This document shows, one piece after another, positions 3,705-56,318 of a DNA stretch of 64,000 nucleotides. The translations under genes and the position numbers were made by a program. The stretch comes from Nitrososphaerota archaeon (lineage in GTDB: Archaea; Thermoproteota; Nitrososphaeria_A; Caldarchaeales; Calditenuaceae), in NCBI GenBank assembly GCA_009889515.1, contig WUQR01000139.1, positions 682,001-746,000 of the forward strand, read 5' to 3'. The notes under the pieces are model-generated. The model had not been told where the DNA came from, searched no databases, and saw only the letters and a program-made list of their open reading frames with translations. The stretch's first letter is position 1, and every line of letters begins with the position of its first letter.

Positions 3705-4613
3705 TTAATCACCCGCGAAGACGTCTCTAATACCGTCGCCGAGCAAATTAAATGAGAGTATTATCAGTACAATGCCGAGTGCAGGGCCCATGCTCATCCA
3801 CCAGTAACTCGGGAGGTACTTACTGTACTCGGATACCATTGTTCCAAGGTCTGGGGTCGGCGGCTGTGCCCCGAGGCCGACGAAACTAATAGCGGCCCCT
3901 ATCAGTACAACCCATCCAGCGTCCAGCGTAACTTTGGTAAGTATTATGCCTAGCTGGTTGGGCAGTAATTCGCGGAAGAGAATATGTAGGGTTGAGGCGC
4001 CTTGAGCCTCGGCGGCTAGGATGAATGGCTCATTCCTGAGAGAGGTAGTTACAGAGTGGGTTAGTTTAACATACCAGGGCCACCACATCAATGACACCGC
4101 CAGCATGGCGTTGTATATGTTGGGCTCCAGTATGGAGGCAATTGCTAGGGCTAAGACCAGATAGGGTATAGAGATGAATATGTCCGATAGCCTTATTATT
4201 ATTGTCTCTATTATGGTTCCTCTATAATACCCGGCAATGAGGCCCAAGACCACACCAGTAGGCACTACTAGAGACAAAACTATACCAATTAAGAGAAATG
4301 CGTATCTAAACCCGAAAATAACGCGACTTAACACATCCCGCCCATACATGTCAGTGCCAAACAGGTGCTCCATGCTTGGCGGCTTGTAGGCATCCTTAAA
4401 ATTGATGTATAGTCCAGCGTGCTCAGGATAGGGGGCGATAAACTCTGCTAGGCCAACAAAGAGAATTAGAAGACCGACAAGCGACAGGCCAATGAGAGAA
4501 AGTTTGCTCCTCTTAAATCTAAACCACACTCGCCTCAGATTCTCTCTCTTAACACTTCGCTCAAGCCCGAGATACCGCTTCTGTTCTTCGACTGTCCTAC
4601 CCACTCGTCTCAC
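3705..4613 (-). CDS. Peptide/nickel-type ABC importer permease (DppC-like)
   Basis: A 302-residue integral membrane protein. The N-terminal OppC-type segment (about 20-75) holds the first membrane helix, followed by a MetI-like transmembrane domain with further helices; the coupling-loop region EAQGASTLHILFRELLPN (about 201-218) contacts the ATPases. It forms the translocation channel with the DppB-like subunit, whose gene overlaps it by 4 bp. The short charged N-terminus before the first helix is usual for OppC-type subunits. Confidence 0.9.
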   Translation of the reverse strand: MRRVGRTVEEQKRYLGLERSVKRENLRRVWFRFKRSKLSLIGLSLVGLLILFVGLAEFIAPYPEHAGLYINFKDAYKPPSMEHLFGTDMYGRDVLSRVIFGFRYAFLLIGIVLSLVVPTGVVLGLIAGYYRGTIIETIIIRLSDIFISIPYLVLALAIASILEPNIYNAMLAVSLMWWPWYVKLTHSVTTSLRNEPFILAAEAQGASTLHILFRELLPNQLGIILTKVTLDAGWVVLIGAAISFVGLGAQPPTPDLGTMVSEYSKYLPSYWWMSMGPALGIVLIILSFNLLGDGIRDVFAGD

Positions 4614-5683
4614 CTCTTGTGTTTAATGCGTGGGTCCAAGTTCGAGATGAGCAAGTCTATGACGATAGACGCTAGAGTGTAGGCAAGGCCAATTATAAGA
4701 ACTACGCCAACGATCGCGTTTAGGTCCTTTCTCAACATAGCGGTTATGCCATATCTTGACAGGCCGGGCCAATTAAATATAAACTCGACTAGAAATGCGT
4801 TTCCTATTAGCGACGCCATGTCTAGGGTCATTATGGTTACGGTTGGGATCATGGAGGGTTTTAGTGCGTATTTAAAGAAGACGACAGAACTTGGAAGCCC
4901 GTGCGAGTACATGTTCAGAATATAGTCTTTATTCACATTCTCTATTAGGTTTGCCCTCAGGATTCTTGCCTCTTGGGCTATTGTTCCAATGGCGAGTGCT
5001 AGGGAGGGTATGATGAGGTGGCTCAAGGCGTCAAAGAATGCAGGTATATTCCCCTGCAGGAGGGAATCCAGTGTAACAAGCCCCGTTATCCTCTTTACTT
5101 CGAACCCTAGGCTCAGACGGCCATAGGCAGGTAGTAAGCCAAGCCAGCTCGCCAAGATTAGCTGTAGAATTATGGCCCAGACAAAGGAAGGAATCGCTAT
5201 TCCTGCATAAGCGAATACTCTCACAAAATTGTCTATGGCCGAGTTGGGTCTCCTGCCACTTAATACTCCTAGGCCAAACGCGCCGAATACGTCGATAACG
5301 AGCGCAAAAATTATGAGTTCGACTGTGGCTGGCAGGAATTCTATAATGTCCGTGGTTACATCCCTGAATGTGACTAAAGATATTCCCAGTCTGCCGTGGA
5401 ATACGTCTGTAAGCCATACGAAATATTGGACGTAAAGTGGTTCCTTTAGATGGAGCATCTGCCTATACTGTTCTACAACATCTTCAGGCGCGCGGGGGCC
5501 TAATGCGAGTCTAGCGGGATCACCTGGCAAGACGCGCGCTATGACAAAGATGAGTATAGAAATGCCTAGAAGAGTAACTATGCTATAGGCTATCTTTCTT
5601 ATGTAGTAGTTGTCGAACAAGTTAGACACTCTTGCAGCCATACTGGACCTAGGTGTATTCAGATTAGGCTCTTGGCTCGCCAT
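4610..5683 (-). CDS. Peptide/nickel-type ABC importer permease (DppB-like)
   Basis: A 357-residue permease. The opening helix (ITLLGISILIFVIARVLPGDPA, about 37-58) with its RxLPGDPA motif is diagnostic of DppB/OppB subunits, and EARILRANLIENVNKDY is the ATPase-coupling loop. About 35 extra N-terminal residues precede the first helix. It is the first transport subunit after the racemase gene, 38 bp downstream of it, and overlaps the DppC-like gene by 4 bp. Confidence 0.9.
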   Translation of the reverse strand: MASQEPNLNTPRSSMAARVSNLFDNYYIRKIAYSIVTLLGISILIFVIARVLPGDPARLALGPRAPEDVVEQYRQMLHLKEPLYVQYFVWLTDVFHGRLGISLVTFRDVTTDIIEFLPATVELIIFALVIDVFGAFGLGVLSGRRPNSAIDNFVRVFAYAGIAIPSFVWAIILQLILASWLGLLPAYGRLSLGFEVKRITGLVTLDSLLQGNIPAFFDALSHLIIPSLALAIGTIAQEARILRANLIENVNKDYILNMYSHGLPSSVVFFKYALKPSMIPTVTIMTLDMASLIGNAFLVEFIFNWPGLSRYGITAMLRKDLNAIVGVVLIIGLAYTLASIVIDLLISNLDPRIKHKR

Positions 5684-5721
5684 GGCCCCTCATTATCCAT
5701 GGATTCTCCCGCAAAGGCGGG

Positions 5722-6465
5722 TCATAACAGCTCCGTTAGGCCCCATTTCTGGAGCTCGGAAACCGGCGGGGGCTCATAGGTATATTTTCTGCTATGCGCC
5801 CAGCCGCATAATTCTTTGAGCCTTACACATTGTTCGGCGTGCTTAAGGGAAGCAATGATTGGGTCTATTACAGGTATTCCGAACCTTTTTTGCACCTCAC
5901 GGTAGAAGCCGAAAAAGACTGTGCACCCCAATATCACTACCTCAGCTCCTTCATCGACGCTCTCCTTGACAACTTCCATGAGTCTTCTCTCCGTTTCACT
6001 CTCATCCTTATGAAGGTCGTGGACTCCCATCTCTATGTCCTTAAAAGATACGAGCCTATCCTCTAAACCATATTCCTTAATTCTACTCATCATCAGCGGA
6101 ATCCACTTCTTACGACCCACTATAATTGAGAATTTGTCTCCCAGTGATAACGCCGTCGTTGTTGACGATTCGAGTGGTGCAGTTACGACGATATTGCTTA
6201 TTTCACGTGCCTCTCTTAGTCCAGGGTCGTAGAAGCAGCCTATTATGCAGGCATCGTACCCCTCTCTTTCAGCTTTTTTAACTTCACTCAATATGTGAGG
6301 CACCATTAATGCGTCGTAGGCATAGTATTCGAGATGGTGTGGACCCGATTTGAAGGAGACTACGTCTAACTTTGTTGACGGTTCTATGTATTCTTCTAAG
6401 TATTCTTTCATAGGTTTATCGAAGATTGAGGTCCCGACAGGGTTGATAAACAATACTCTAGCCAT
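5722..6465 (-). CDS. Asp/Glu/hydantoin racemase family protein
   Basis: A 247-residue enzyme with the two cysteines expected for cofactor-independent racemases: C77 (CIIGCFYDPGL) and C181 (VVILGCTVFFG). These spacings match hydantoin racemases, where the catalytic cysteines lie near residues 76 and 181. It sits inside the importer operon between the binding protein and the first permease, and a hydantoinase B gene lies 5 kb away, so racemisation of a hydantoin or amino acid derivative is the best reading. Maleate isomerases and Asp/Glu racemases share the fold, so the substrate stays open. Confidence 0.82.
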   Translation of the reverse strand: MARVLFINPVGTSIFDKPMKEYLEEYIEPSTKLDVVSFKSGPHHLEYYAYDALMVPHILSEVKKAEREGYDACIIGCFYDPGLREAREISNIVVTAPLESSTTTALSLGDKFSIIVGRKKWIPLMMSRIKEYGLEDRLVSFKDIEMGVHDLHKDESETERRLMEVVKESVDEGAEVVILGCTVFFGFYREVQKRFGIPVIDPIIASLKHAEQCVRLKELCGWAHSRKYTYEPPPVSELQKWGLTELL

Positions 6466-6518
6466 TTAATGACCACCCACAAAAATATCTGAGGTAAACG
6501 TCTGCATGAAGTGTCGCA

Positions 6519-8198
6519 TCACTTAGGGATTTTTTCGGGGAAGACTTGGAACCATCTGAAGTCCAGCTCGTATTCCGCTATTGGTAGAACCTCGCCCCTA
6601 GCAGCCGGGTAGTCAATATAGTCTGCCTGATAGGCTCTGAGGACTACGTGCTCGTAAACGAACACTGAGGGAGCCAGCTCATCAAGCTTTCTCTGTATCT
6701 CATAGTACTTCTGCATCCTCTGATTAAAGTCTATGGTAGCTAGGGCCTCCTCTATCATTTTATCAATTTCTGGGTTCATTAACCATTCACCCTGCTCCCA
6801 TGTTCCAGTAGCTGCCGAGTGGTATCGCGACATGAGTATGGATCCTGCCTCAGCATAATGTGCGATCACAAATATCGATACTGCGTTCGGCGTTGTCTCC
6901 ATCTTTGTCATACCCTCTACTACTGAGAGCCAGGGTACCTTCACTACGTTGACTTTAAGCCCTATCTCCTCCATGTTAAGCTTGAAGAGCAACGCCACCC
7001 TCTCCTCCCACGGGACTTCAGCAATCCACCAGAACTCGATTGGGTACTGGTCAAGCTGCCCCCAATACTTCGATTTCTTAAGCTCCTCCTTCGCAGCCTC
7101 TATATTCCTCTCCACTGGTTTTCTAGCCGGATCCGCACCTGGAAGCATGCTTGGTACAGGGCCTGAAGGACGCTTCTCGAAAGGCATTATGTCATTTATG
7201 GCCGTCTCATAGTCAAATGCTAGTGTAATTGCCCTCCTGACATGCACGTCATCAGTTGGTGGTTTCTTTGTATGGAGCATAATGTAGAAGACCATCGCTG
7301 AAGGCACTTTCGCGATCTTAACCCCAGGTATCTTTGCCATTGCGTCGTAGTTTTCCAATGGCTGCCACTGGTCAGTCACCTCCAGCTGCCTCTTCTCCAT
7401 CATTGTCCGTATTGTGGTGGGCTCTGTAAAGCCATACATTATGACTTTGGTCGGGGAATTTTGTGCGGTTTCTCCCCAGTACCCGTCAAACTTTACGAGT
7501 GTGACCGACTCGCCTCTCTTATGCTCGGCTAGCTTGTAGGGGCCTGACCCGGCATCTTGCTCGCCTGCCATCAGCCAGTTCTTCCCGTAATCTCCCATCT
7601 CGCCGTATGGGCCATCTGCTATGTGTTGTTTAACTAGCTCACTATCGACAATGTATAGCCGGACTAGAGTGATAAGGAATGGGCCGAATGGCTTTGTTAG
7701 GGCTATCCGAACAGTGTAGTCGTCCAGCGCCACTGTTTTTTCAAGGTCTACATAGGGTTTAAACAAGTAACCATAGCCTTCCCCTATCGTTATCATACGT
7801 TTCAGTGAGAAGACTACATCTTGTGCCTTGAGTTCTCGCCCACTGTGGAACTTAACTCCCTTCCTTAGGTGGAACGTCCAGACCATCCCATCTCCGGATA
7901 CCTCCCACTTCTCCGCAACATGTGGCTTGACGGTCCCATCTTTGTTTGGATAAACCAAGGTGTCATATACGTTTAGGAAGTAGACCGAGCTCGCCTCATC
8001 CGAGCCTACGGCCGGATCCATGTATGGAACATTGGCAAACGAGACCCTCAACAGCCTCTCTCTAGGCGGCGCCGTCTGACCCGGCAGAGTAGTACTCGTG
8101 AGAATGAACCCCACAGCAGCGACAACTGCTATCACAACAACGATGGCAGCAATAACAAGTTTCCTCCCACCTCTCATACTTGTTGTGCCCGTTGTCAT
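6519..8198 (-). CDS. Extracellular solute-binding protein, family 5 (peptide/nickel-type importer)
   Basis: A long periplasmic-type binding protein that captures substrate outside the membrane for the downstream permeases. The reading frame extends to a TTG at 8243, but a TATA box lies inside that extension (8221-8230) and places transcription start at about 8199, so the ATG at 8198 (MTTGTTSMRGG) is preferred, giving 559 residues; a further ATG at 8177 is possible. An N-terminal hydrophobic helix (LVIAAIVVVIAVVAAVGFIL) followed by a Thr/Pro-rich linker anchors it, as in archaeal membrane-tethered binding proteins. The SBP family 5 core follows, with the typical FHLRKGVKFHSGRELKAQDV segment. 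First gene of the operon. Confidence 0.88.
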   Translation of the reverse strand: MTTGTTSMRGGRKLVIAAIVVVIAVVAAVGFILTSTTLPGQTAPPRERLLRVSFANVPYMDPAVGSDEASSVYFLNVYDTLVYPNKDGTVKPHVAEKWEVSGDGMVWTFHLRKGVKFHSGRELKAQDVVFSLKRMITIGEGYGYLFKPYVDLEKTVALDDYTVRIALTKPFGPFLITLVRLYIVDSELVKQHIADGPYGEMGDYGKNWLMAGEQDAGSGPYKLAEHKRGESVTLVKFDGYWGETAQNSPTKVIMYGFTEPTTIRTMMEKRQLEVTDQWQPLENYDAMAKIPGVKIAKVPSAMVFYIMLHTKKPPTDDVHVRRAITLAFDYETAINDIMPFEKRPSGPVPSMLPGADPARKPVERNIEAAKEELKKSKYWGQLDQYPIEFWWIAEVPWEERVALLFKLNMEEIGLKVNVVKVPWLSVVEGMTKMETTPNAVSIFVIAHYAEAGSILMSRYHSAATGTWEQGEWLMNPEIDKMIEEALATIDFNQRMQKYYEIQRKLDELAPSVFVYEHVVLRAYQADYIDYPAARGEVLPIAEYELDFRWFQVFPEKIPK

Positions 8199-37283: not shown

Positions 37284-37898
37284 CTAAGACCGGTGGATCT
37301 CTTCAAGGACCTGCCTGAAAGCCTCCGTATCCATCTCCGGGGTTAGGATATATCGAAGCACGTGGTTGCGGTCCGCCACATATATGACTGCGCTATGGCT
37401 GATGTAGTATGTGTCGCCACTCTTAGCAGCCGACCCATAGTCATCGGGGTTGGCAGCTCCATAAGCCCTCCATACCCTACCCAACTCCTCCAGATCACCT
37501 GTAAGGGCTATCGTCCCGGGATAGTATTGTGAGACCCACTTGGCTAGGATGGAGGGGGTGTCGCGCACCGGATCCACGGTTATGAAAATGACCGCGAAGT
37601 CCCCCCTCTCGGGGCCTAGAGCTTTTAGCGACGCCGCGATTTTTCTCATGGCTAGGGGGCAGACGTCGGGGCAGCTTGTGTATCCGAAGAAGAGGATAAC
37701 TGGTCTTCCCGCAACTTTTTGTAGGCTGAAGCTCTGATTGTCTTGGCTAACTAGTGAGAAATCTGGTAGTGGTTTACCGCTTACAACAACACCTGTCTGC
37801 GGCTCTGTTGGTGATCTGAATGATGACAATGCGGTATAAAACATAAAAGCGGAGGTTAAGAAGAGTATTATTGTTGCGTAGAAGTATTTTCTGGTCAT
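37284..37898 (-). CDS. sco1: SCO1/SenC-type copper chaperone
   Basis: A 204-residue membrane-anchored thioredoxin-fold protein. An N-terminal helix (residues 5-24) anchors it outside the membrane; the copper ligands C76 and C80 (GYTSCPDVCPLAM) and H168 (YYISHSAV) are all present. SCO proteins load or reduce copper sites of oxidases and related enzymes. Its ATG overlaps the stop of the upstream copper protein by 4 bp, which points to that protein as its client. Confidence 0.93.
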   Translation of the reverse strand: MTRKYFYATIILFLTSAFMFYTALSSFRSPTEPQTGVVVSGKPLPDFSLVSQDNQSFSLQKVAGRPVILFFGYTSCPDVCPLAMRKIAASLKALGPERGDFAVIFITVDPVRDTPSILAKWVSQYYPGTIALTGDLEELGRVWRAYGAANPDDYGSAAKSGDTYYISHSAVIYVADRNHVLRYILTPEMDTEAFRQVLEEIHRS

Positions 37899-39379
37899 TT
37901 GGTCTCTTGTCTTGTCCGGCTCCTCCGGCCGAGGTCAATCGCCATAATGATAATCCCTATTCCTATAATAAATGCGAGGATGGATGTCAGGTCTATCGTC
38001 GGACCAACTCCGCCTAACGCCGCTGCCTTGTAGACAATTATCTCGCCCTTCATGTAGGGGTGTATTCCGCAGATATAGCTGTAGGTACCCTCTTTCGTGG
38101 GTGTGAAAGCAAACTTCTCAGCATTCTTAAGTATCTCTGAAGTGAAAGTCTCGGGTCCTGAGACAGTCGCCACGTTGTGTTGGCCAGTAACCTCGCCTGA
38201 GCCTATGCTCAAGACATCCTCATTCACCCAGACAATCTTTGAGCCTGTAGGAACTCGCGCAACCTTGGGGTAGAAACTGTTACCCACTATCCGCACCACA
38301 ACTGTGTCGCCGGGATAGAAGGTGGTGGGTGCTTCACGCTCCTCGGGGGTTGGCTCGAAGGGGGCTATTACCCTCTTTGCGGATTGGATTTGTGGAGGCG
38401 GTAACGGGCCGTTCGGCAAAACCATACTAACCCTCTCGTTGCCCACCTTCGAGGAAAGGAAGCCCGCCGCTCCTTTAAGCGTCTGTGTTCCAAAGGCATG
38501 TGTCACTAGCAGGAAGTTCCCTTCAGAGGGCACTCTCCACTCTATGACATAGGAGTCTGTTGGCCCTACTGTGACTGTCTGCAGCCCCTCCTCAACATTG
38601 TTTGGGTTTCCGCCGTGGTACACGTATTCCCAGATCCCACCCACGGCGTGGAAACTGGACACTAGGTTCGGTCCTACGTTCAAGAAGTAGAATCTCACGT
38701 AGTCTCCGGGTCGCGCCTTGATCGGCTCAGTCAAATATCTGAACATTCTCCCGTTGAACATTACGTATACTGGGCTACCATCGGTGAAGTCCTTACCATT
38801 AGCGTAGACCTCGTGTTGGACTAGAAAGACCTTTATGTCTGGCTCTTTTCCTAACTGCTCCTCCAACTTGTACTTCACCTTCTTAGGTTCAACGACAATC
38901 ATTCCATACATCCCCGCTAGTGTGTGGGTTAGGATTCCATGGCCACCCGGCGCGCAGTGGTACATGTATACGCCGGGGAAGTCTGCCTTGAAGACTAGCT
39001 TACGCGACTCACCTGGCGGGATGCTGCCGACGAAGAGGGATGTCTGAGTATTTGCAGCGTGAATGGAGGCGCCATGCGTATACTTGCCCTCATTCTTCAC
39101 GGTTATCTCGACAACATCACCCTCCTCCACCAAGATCAGCGGCCCTGGGACAGTGCCGTTGAAGGTCCAAGCCTTGAAGACTACACCATCATCTATCAGG
39201 ACATCATTTTCAGACGTGATTAGGAGGAATCGCTTATTGGGTGTGGCACCCGGTGGCGGATTCCCCGGAACATCTGCGTAAACAATTTGCTGCTGGGCAT
39301 AGGCTGCAACGGTCAGAATGGCAGTGCAGAAGAAGATGGCGACGCAGACGCTGTAGATTCTAGTCTTGGGACTTCTCAT
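37895..39379 (-). CDS. NirK-like multicopper protein with extra C-terminal cupredoxin domain and membrane anchor
   Basis: A 494-residue protein from ATG 39379 with a signal peptide (residues 1-28, ending VAAYAQ); an upstream extension to 39478 is unlikely. Domains 1 and 2 match copper nitrite reductase: type 1 ligands H102, C142, H152 and M157, type 2 ligands H107, H141 and a later THAFGTQTLKGAAG His, and the catalytic-type His in SSFHAVGG. The aspartate between the two first His ligands of NirK is replaced by S105 (THGASIH). A third cupredoxin (about 380-465; GQHNVATV, CGIHPYM) and a final helix (ILAFIIGIGIIIMAIDLG) follow. It could be a tethered nitrite reductase or another multicopper oxidase. 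First gene of an operon with sco1. Confidence 0.85.
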   Translation of the reverse strand: MRSPKTRIYSVCVAIFFCTAILTVAAYAQQQIVYADVPGNPPPGATPNKRFLLITSENDVLIDDGVVFKAWTFNGTVPGPLILVEEGDVVEITVKNEGKYTHGASIHAANTQTSLFVGSIPPGESRKLVFKADFPGVYMYHCAPGGHGILTHTLAGMYGMIVVEPKKVKYKLEEQLGKEPDIKVFLVQHEVYANGKDFTDGSPVYVMFNGRMFRYLTEPIKARPGDYVRFYFLNVGPNLVSSFHAVGGIWEYVYHGGNPNNVEEGLQTVTVGPTDSYVIEWRVPSEGNFLLVTHAFGTQTLKGAAGFLSSKVGNERVSMVLPNGPLPPPQIQSAKRVIAPFEPTPEEREAPTTFYPGDTVVVRIVGNSFYPKVARVPTGSKIVWVNEDVLSIGSGEVTGQHNVATVSGPETFTSEILKNAEKFAFTPTKEGTYSYICGIHPYMKGEIIVYKAAALGGVGPTIDLTSILAFIIGIGIIIMAIDLGRRSRTRQETK

Positions 39380-39415
39380 CAAACAATAGTATAGCCGGGA
39401 CAGCCTTAACCACGA

Positions 39416-39475
39416 TATGCAACACTGATTCCCTTTATCACCGATTTTCTGCATATTTTTGCATACTTTTGCATA
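39416..39475. promoter_or_regulatory. Operator-like TGCATA repeats in the divergent spacer
   Basis: TGCATA occurs at 39450-39455, 39460-39465 and 39470-39475, exactly 10 bp apart and so on one DNA face, separated by T-rich tetramers. An inverted copy (TATGCA) lies at 39416-39421. The cluster sits between the copper operon and its divergent regulator gene, as expected for a binding site controlling one or both. Confidence 0.6.
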
Positions 39476-39523
39476 CAATTTAATAGAGCGAGCGGGTCAA
39501 AAATCGTCGATTAGAGGGAGGAA

Positions 39524-39531
39524 TTAAATAT
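39524..39531 (+). promoter_or_regulatory. TATA box of the Cys-rich regulator gene
   Basis: TTAAATAT centred 27 bp before the ATG at 39555, implying a leaderless transcript. Confidence 0.55.
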
Positions 39532-39554
39532 TCCACCCCTTATATAGGGTCCAG

Positions 39555-40208
39555 ATGACCGGTTACCCCTTTCGGACCTTGATCCTAGTCCGTAATACCG
39601 ACTGTAAAGTTTGCCGCCTTCTCGAGACGGGGTCGATTGAGGGGGTTTTTAAGCATCTGAGATGTGGTGAGACCTGCTCCACCCATCTTATCCAGCTAAC
39701 CCGGAGCGACGGGGGTGTGAAGGGACGGAATCTTAAGGTCCCCGGCTCTTCTGTATATCGCCTCTCGAGCGGCCTCCTGCTTATCGAGTCACCCAGCTGC
39801 ACGGCCTGTAAAGTAATCTCCAAGACACCCTGCATACCGAGGCAGGCCATTTACATACCGAAGACTGGGATAATCTTTAACCTGATAACGCCTAGCCCAC
39901 GCGTTTCTAAAAGGATTTTGCAGAGTCTGGCCGCGGCCGGGAAAGATGTTGAAGTGGTGGAGGAGTCTAACCTCATTCTTCCGAGAGATCTTACACGAAA
40001 GCAGTATCTCGTGCTTGTCACAGCTATGAAGATGGGCTACTTCAACAGCCCGCGTGAGTGTACTCTCTCGGAAGTTGCATCTGAACTCGGTCTCTCAAAG
40101 TCCACAGTATACAGATACTTGAAGGCAGCCCTCAAGAAACTGGCACTAGAGGCACTGCTCCAGTATGAGACTATCCGTGAACGTGGTAGAGCATCATTAA
40201 TATATTGA
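39555..40208 (+). CDS. Cys-rich HTH_10 (bacterio-opsin activator-type) transcription regulator
   Basis: A 217-residue protein. Residues 155-205 are an HTH_10 domain (LTRKQYLVLVTAMKMGYFNSPRECTLSEVASELGLSKSTVYRYLKAA in parts). The N-terminal sensor region has seven cysteines, C17/C20, C37/C41, C82/C85 and C93, arranged as CxxC, CxxxC and CxxC pairs, which suggests metal or redox sensing. It is divergent from the NirK-like/sco1 operon across a spacer with phased repeats, so it probably regulates copper or nitrogen-oxide genes. The ligand is inferred only. Confidence 0.82.
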   Translation: MTGYPFRTLILVRNTDCKVCRLLETGSIEGVFKHLRCGETCSTHLIQLTRSDGGVKGRNLKVPGSSVYRLSSGLLLIESPSCTACKVISKTPCIPRQAIYIPKTGIIFNLITPSPRVSKRILQSLAAAGKDVEVVEESNLILPRDLTRKQYLVLVTAMKMGYFNSPRECTLSEVASELGLSKSTVYRYLKAALKKLALEALLQYETIRERGRASLIY

Positions 40209-56197: not shown

Positions 56198-56318
56198 CCC
56201 GGCGTAGCTCAGCCTGGTAGAGCATCCGGCTGTAGAGGCCGGCATCCTGCCGCGCCTTTGCCAGCCTACCGGGCTAACAGAAACCGGAGGGCCGCAGGTT
56301 CAAATCCTGCCGCCGGGA
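56198..56318 (+). tRNA. tRNA-Tyr (GTA), intron-containing
   Basis: Acceptor CCCGGCG (56198-56204) pairs with CGCCGGG (56311-56317); the D-arm is GCTC/GAGC; the anticodon stem TCCGG (56225-56229) pairs with CCGGA (56284-56288). The loop reads C-T-GTA before the intron. T-arm GCAGG/CCTGC with TTCAAAT; discriminator A at 56318. A TATA-like GCTTTAATAC lies about 31 bp upstream. CCA is not encoded. Confidence 0.95.
56236..56282 (+). other. Bulge-helix-bulge intron in tRNA-Tyr, 47 nt, canonical 37/38 position
   Basis: The central helix is CTGT (56230-56233) with ACAG (56277-56280), flanked by the bulges AGA (56234-56236) and AAA (56281-56283). Cutting after the second base of each bulge gives a 47-nt intron and rejoins the anticodon loop. 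The inner helix has an extra A (56276), so the motif is slightly relaxed. Confidence 0.85.

Follow-up and report, generated by a model that had tools for sequence, protein, structure and literature searches.

The closest described system is TsNirK, the copper nitrite reductase of Thermus scotoductus SA-01 (PDB 6hbe), which Opperman et al. (2019, PMC6400189) placed in a new subgroup among the three-domain NirKs of class III. TsNirK carries a third, C-terminal cupredoxin and a serine (SerCAT) that replaces the catalytic Asp, and it reduces nitrite with a turnover of 65 s-1 and a KM of 27 uM. Its T2Cu EPR signal shifts with nitrite, and the T1CuC to T1CuN to T2Cu distances of 14.1 and 12.6 A are compatible with transfer in that order (PMC6400189). 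Ile221 blocks the primary proton channel of this enzyme, its authors proposed that Ser acts instead of Asp in proton delivery, and further members of the same kind were named from Crenothrix and Fraserbacteria (PMC6400189).

The presence of nirK has also been reported for Caldarchaeales/Aigarchaeota MAGs (PMC10547907, PMC5877337), and the parts of these two papers that were available do not mention the SerCAT loop, the fused domain or the anchor together with nirK. The gene is therefore already known in Caldarchaeales by name, the SerCAT three-domain kind is known by structure, and no new reaction is described here. What is new is the link between the two: as judged from their alignment, the archaeal nirK genes are of the SerCAT three-domain kind but encode Met where TsNirK has Gln, and a membrane anchor in addition.

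The window analysed here is a stretch of 64,000 nucleotides from a member of the Caldarchaeales (contig WUQR01000139.1). Its nirK frame was confirmed as an ORF of 494 aa that begins at ATG 39379; a longer frame on the same strand opens at TTG 39478, and the alignment of homologues favours ATG 39379 as the start. The features of the locus are as follows.

37284-37898, minus strand: sco1/SenC copper chaperone with an intact CPDVC motif and distal His (PF02630, E 4.7e-34; motif; synteny)
37895-39379, minus strand: nirK, putative copper nitrite reductase with three domains, of the SerCAT kind known from TsNirK (PDB 6hbe best match and fold match rank 1)
37901-37990, minus strand: predicted C-terminal membrane helix, residues 464-493, with basic tail (hydropathy, KD 2.44; AlphaFold model)
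38030-38308, minus strand: domain III, amicyanin-like cupredoxin, residues about 358-450, with H401, C437, H440 and M443 (PF13473/PF00127, amicyanin model, TsNirK alignment)
38450-38848, minus strand: domain II, cupredoxin, residues about 178-310, with HisCAT H244, V246, I249, Q267, T268 and T2Cu ligand H294 (alignment)
38882-39238, minus strand: domain I, cupredoxin, residues about 48-166, with T1CuN ligands H102/C142/H152/M157 and T2Cu ligands H107/H141 (TsNirK alignment)
39065-39067, minus strand: Ser105 codon, at the SerCAT position equivalent to Asp98 in the classical NirK (alignment)
39290-39379, minus strand: predicted signal peptide of the Sec type, covering residues 1 to about 30, with a probable cleavage site at AYAQ (KD 2.33 at residue 8; helix 4-26 in the model)
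39380-39554, no strand assigned: intergenic candidate operator (TATGCA repeats and GTTGCATA half-site)
39555-40208, plus strand: divergent HTH_10 regulator with a conserved N-terminal Cys (CxxC-type) and His (PF04967, E 2.6e-18)

Domain anatomy and kinship with TsNirK

Pfam matched Cu-oxidase_3/_2 to the NirK core, within residues 1-300, and a separate cupredoxin (Cupredoxin_1/Copper-bind) to residues 358-449. The general ligand set of NirK is complete (T1Cu His2-Cys-Met, T2Cu His3, the Cys-His bridge and the catalytic His), as is the His-Cys-His-Met set of the third domain, where Glu396 lies on the path to T1CuN according to the TsNirK alignment. A comparison of hydropathy placed the C-terminal helix in all Caldarchaeales rows and in none of the Thermus NirK sequences. 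A preliminary description of the locus, made without database searches, had proposed this anatomy, including all type 1 and type 2 copper ligands, the catalytic His, the fused cupredoxin and the anchor, and it was borne out by the alignment, Pfam and hydropathy.

As a sequence match in the PDB, 6hbe was the best hit (residues 43-452, E 5.5e-135), followed at E 3e-49 by a two-domain NirK of the Geobacillus type. The structure prediction and comparison with NirK that had been suggested earlier gave the same first match, with 6hbe at rank 1 in Foldseek (E 1.7e-50, 50% identity, TM 0.78 to target) for an AlphaFold monomer that was built only from the window and relative-locus sequences and is of medium confidence (pLDDT 73, pTM 0.62), weak around the copper-site loops. 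When the functional residues named in PMC6400189 were aligned, 21 of 24 were identical in the window's NirK, a count that omits "Ile121" because its numbering is off the alignment register. The identical residues include SerCAT, HisCAT, ValCAT, Ile221, Gln239, Thr240, Thr86, Ser87 and Glu385 (TsNirK numbering). The three differences, from TsNirK to the window, are Gln130 to Met157 (the axial T1CuN ligand), Arg389 to Gln400 and Asn92 to Ser119.

The window's protein thus shares with TsNirK a core followed by a C-terminal amicyanin-like cupredoxin, the His-Gly-x-Ser-Ile-His loop with SerCAT, HisCAT, ValCAT, an Ile at the place of the primary-channel His, the Gln/Thr pair and all T2Cu and T1CuC ligands, at about 50% identity. 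It differs in the three residues above, in its membrane helix, in its archaeal host and in its partner genes, which are sco1 and the HTH_10 regulator and not a nirS/nor cluster. Since Met157 and Gln400 are unlike TsNirK, the redox potentials may differ. The core T1Cu axial ligand is Met in all Caldarchaeales rows and Gln only in Thermus; on this alignment the Gln is a feature of the Thermus enzymes that is not treated as defining the TsNirK subgroup, and the Met is what makes the archaeal core T1Cu appear similar to the classical one. The archaeal proteins may therefore allow the effect of the Ser to be separated from that of the Gln, unlike the natural Thermus enzymes.

Other solved structures are more distant. 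The Geobacillus two-domain NirKs (3wia, 3x1e and others) have the same core fold, T1Cu His2-Cys-Met set, T2Cu ligands and His/Val of the nitrite pocket, but they have Asp98, are without the third cupredoxin and are 33-36% identical. The heme- or cupredoxin-fused class III NirKs of Ralstonia (3ziy) and Hyphomicrobium (2dv6) also tether an electron donor, but the tethered domain is either a cytochrome c at the C-terminus or a cupredoxin at the N-terminus, and the identity is about 31%.

The NCBIfam equivalog model for NirK, TIGR02376, scored 169 bits for the window, 156 for a Caldarchaeum member and 154 for a Thermus member, against a cut-off of 296. Because the Thermus homologue fails as well, the cut-off evidently misses the whole subgroup, which would explain the annotation of such proteins as multicopper oxidases, and annotations of geothermal archaea may underreport nitrite reduction as a consequence.

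The possibility suggested by those annotations, that an extra cupredoxin has been joined to a multicopper oxidase of two domains, either a laccase or a metal oxidase, with a trinuclear cluster, is scarcely credible. Thermus homologues are publicly annotated as "multicopper oxidase domain-containing protein", and the Nitrosopumilus multicopper oxidase 9cck, which is likewise archaeal with a core and then a C-terminal cupredoxin, was the fold match at rank 3. However, 9cck is of the distant AOA type with just 23% identity in the fold alignment, and the HxH and HCH motifs of the trinuclear cluster are missing, with HGASIH and HCAP in the window's protein as opposed to HTMHFH and HCH in the distant AOA-family proteins. 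A multicopper oxidase or laccase identity was rejected on these motifs.

The serine at the Asp98 position and the proposed reaction

The loop from H102 to H107 reads HGASIH, with Ser105 at the place of Asp98, and Ser105 aligns to Ser78 of TsNirK. Two-domain bacterial and haloarchaeal NirKs carry Asp at this position, and one Chloroflexi sequence carries Asn. The preliminary description had claimed the replacement of Asp98 by Ser105 and had named an Asp shifted to a neighbouring residue as the case that would speak against it. That case was looked for by alignment and was not found: the loop aligns without gaps to ten two-domain bacterial NirKs, there is no Asp in or beside it, and neither Asp nor Glu occurs between residues 98 and 123. 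The serine is invariant in every aligned Caldarchaeales homologue (eight relatives; 66-85% identity) and in three Thermus sequences, so a sequencing error does not account for it, and all copper ligands are invariant together with it across the Caldarchaeales rows. AspCAT marks the classical enzymes only, since TsNirK is active with Ser. The alternative that the catalytic His is missing, which arises if the second His of PHLIGGH (Ile here) is taken as HisCAT, was also ruled out; HisCAT is the first His, H216 in TsNirK and H244 here. The Ile at the second place is the normal TsNirK feature Ile221 (PMC6400189).

Given this comparison, the window's protein is probably a copper nitrite reductase of the TsNirK subgroup that reduces NO2- to NO on the outer membrane face, a reading to which we assign a probability of roughly 0.87. 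Sequence, homology, residue identity and gene order were observed at the locus itself; structure, nitrite reduction and copper distances are carried over from TsNirK, and we infer catalysis, trimer, anchoring orientation, donor and regulation. The protein would be exported by its Sec signal and would then stay attached to the outer side of the cytoplasmic membrane through the C-terminal helix, with an outward orientation suggested by the basic tail that follows the helix. An external donor, such as a small cupredoxin or another membrane carrier, would reduce the copper of the fused third cupredoxin, and the electron would move on to the type 1 copper of the core. From there it would reach the type 2 copper by way of the Cys142-His141 bridge, and nitrite would be bound and reduced at this second site, which lies at the interface of a presumed trimer. 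Ser105 and His244, with Gln267/Thr268 and water, may take the proton-relay role of the classical Asp98 and His255. Copper would be supplied or maintained by Sco1, and expression is probably under the control of the divergent HTH_10 protein with its Cys residues.

The earlier suggestion that the fused cupredoxin is a built-in electron donor agrees with the reading given for TsNirK, in which electrons pass from T1CuC to T1CuN to T2Cu (PMC6400189). It had further been proposed that the Ser indicates either altered nitrite chemistry or another reaction. The former holds in a narrow sense only, as Ser for Asp in proton delivery, which the TsNirK authors had already proposed; the latter was not upheld, as nitrite is reduced by TsNirK, whose loop likewise carries this Ser.

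In one form, another reaction would be the oxidation of hydroxylamine to NO as the main physiological activity. The NirK of the ammonia oxidiser Nitrososphaera viennensis has this activity in addition to nitrite reduction (PMC6308003), and the replacement of Asp by Ser could shift the preference for substrates. However, the closest characterised relative, TsNirK, reduces nitrite at normal rates, and archaeal AmoA was found neither in the window's genome nor in any Caldarchaeales searched, whereas two AOA-type controls score about 390 bits, so that there is no obvious source of hydroxylamine. This possibility is judged very improbable. The comparison with thaumarchaeal NirK that had been suggested at the outset did not reveal near kin, as the AOA-family copper proteins that were retrieved are only 28-30% identical to the window's NirK.

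Gene order, regulation and the respiratory setting

The start of sco1 and the stop of nirK share the 4 nt ATGA (37895-37898), and the order nirK-sco1 was found in nine of nine Caldarchaeales loci with flanks, even where the surrounding synteny is lost, which confirms the earlier observation that sco1 is coupled downstream. The HTH_10 regulator adjoins nirK in 7 of these 9 loci. Near relatives match the whole surroundings of the window (NuoL and other housekeeping genes), so their synteny says little.

The Cys motif of the regulator is PSC-x-AC, accompanied by a His; the protein is possibly a metal, redox or NO sensor. The intergenic region contains direct repeats of TATGCA with 10-base spacing (39450-39455, 39460-39465 and 39470-39475) and the GTTGCATA half-site, TGCATA at 39416-39421. 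The full palindrome TGCAACNNNGTTGCA (TGCAAC-N3-GTTGCA) lies upstream of nirK in two relatives (L147 and L148); across 44 genomes this pattern occurs at four places, two of which are the ones upstream of nirK. We take NarO to be a Cys-bearing HTH_10 protein, and its likeness to the regulator serves as a lead, not as a test. NarO is described as an archaeal denitrification regulator of Haloferax volcanii (Hattori et al. 2016, as cited in the part of PMC10062603 that was available).

NarG-family proteins gave no match in the window's genome, and NosZ gave none above the cut-off, while NosZ is present in two relatives with NirK (G002 and G006). The pathway is therefore incomplete and must depend on an external source of nitrite. 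The genome encodes one aa3-type oxidase and two heme-copper subunits in which the active-site Tyr is replaced. At the first of these (L114, G000:C139:1226000-1236000; 4387-5973 and 5967-6587, minus strand), helix VI of subunit I reads WWGLDLIADG, with both the His and the Tyr replaced by Asp, and subunit II is without the CuA ligands; the motif also occurs in six other Caldarchaeales genomes. In the second (L115, G000:C139:298000-309000; 4425-6507, plus strand), AHNLMEAMG replaces HPEVY and subunit II bears CuA, and oxidases of this type are also present in G002, G004 and G006. A residue other than Tyr at this place marks NO reductases, with Asp for gNOR and Glu, Asn or Gln for others (table in PMC8756737). 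By that table both proteins are candidate NO reductases, the first gNOR-like and the second of the sNOR or CuA-NOR type. The available part of PMC10547907 reports NO reductase as not found in Caldarchaeales MAGs.

These genes bear on a further possibility, which concerns the role and not the chemistry, namely that the reduction of nitrite to NO proceeds at a low rate and serves signalling or the relief of nitrite stress, not respiration. The lack of NarG and NosZ matches in the genome would fit such a role, as would the lack of nirK in one genus member whose genome is 92% complete. The anchor and tethered carrier, the linked Sco1 and the divergent regulator look instead like a branch of a respiratory chain, and the genome holds the candidate NO reductases; the low-rate role is thus considered unlikely.

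Distribution and phylogeny

Within the window's genus, five of six genomes carry the gene, and it also occurs in further genera and families of Caldarchaeales, at 68-85% identity, with HR01, HR02, Calditenuis fumarioli and Caldarchaeum subterraneum among the named relatives. Across 300 Thermoproteota genomes, full-length matches were present only in Caldarchaeales. The Ser-type subgroup, known from structure, is here extended to uncultivated archaea of hot springs in several families, and the Ser is a stable, conserved trait and not an oddity of Thermus.

Ten plasmid records of Thermus thermophilus carry a homologue at about 50-57% identity. The Thermus genes lie near cbb3/NO-reductase-type and cytochrome genes and, in strain NAR1, also near a second nitrite reductase. 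In strain HB5018, the annotation splits the copy on plasmid pHB5018b (L145, 2953-4328) into a core ORF and a separate cupredoxin ORF that overlap, and the three-domain nirK of the other plasmid copy (L093) is a single frame. A search at E 1e-60 for further bacterial SerCAT members found none in two sets of 350 and 395 genomes from two phyla, centred on a Chloroflexi locus and a proteobacterial locus respectively and holding no positive control.

In a tree of the core, built without the Crenothrix and Fraserbacteria sequences, Caldarchaeales and Thermus formed one 13-row clade with support of 100/99, apart from the two-domain NirKs. The best tree puts Thermus inside the archaeal rows, and archaeal monophyly was not rejected by the AU test (p 0.40; 0.35 without the long row L133). 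It is conceivable, although doubtful, that the SerCAT three-domain NirK was a Caldarchaeales invention with Met and the anchor, which Thermus obtained by transfer before acquiring Gln and losing the anchor.

The long row L133 (G213:C1:390072-391001) is a two-domain NirK with Asp from another Thermoproteota family, and it has the longer HCAPGG linker that is common to the SerCAT group. This long branch is possibly the sister of the three-domain clade.

Elsewhere in the window, an Rfam tRNA match of 121 bases (56198-56318, plus strand) was missed by ARAGORN and is probably an intron-bearing tRNA gene.
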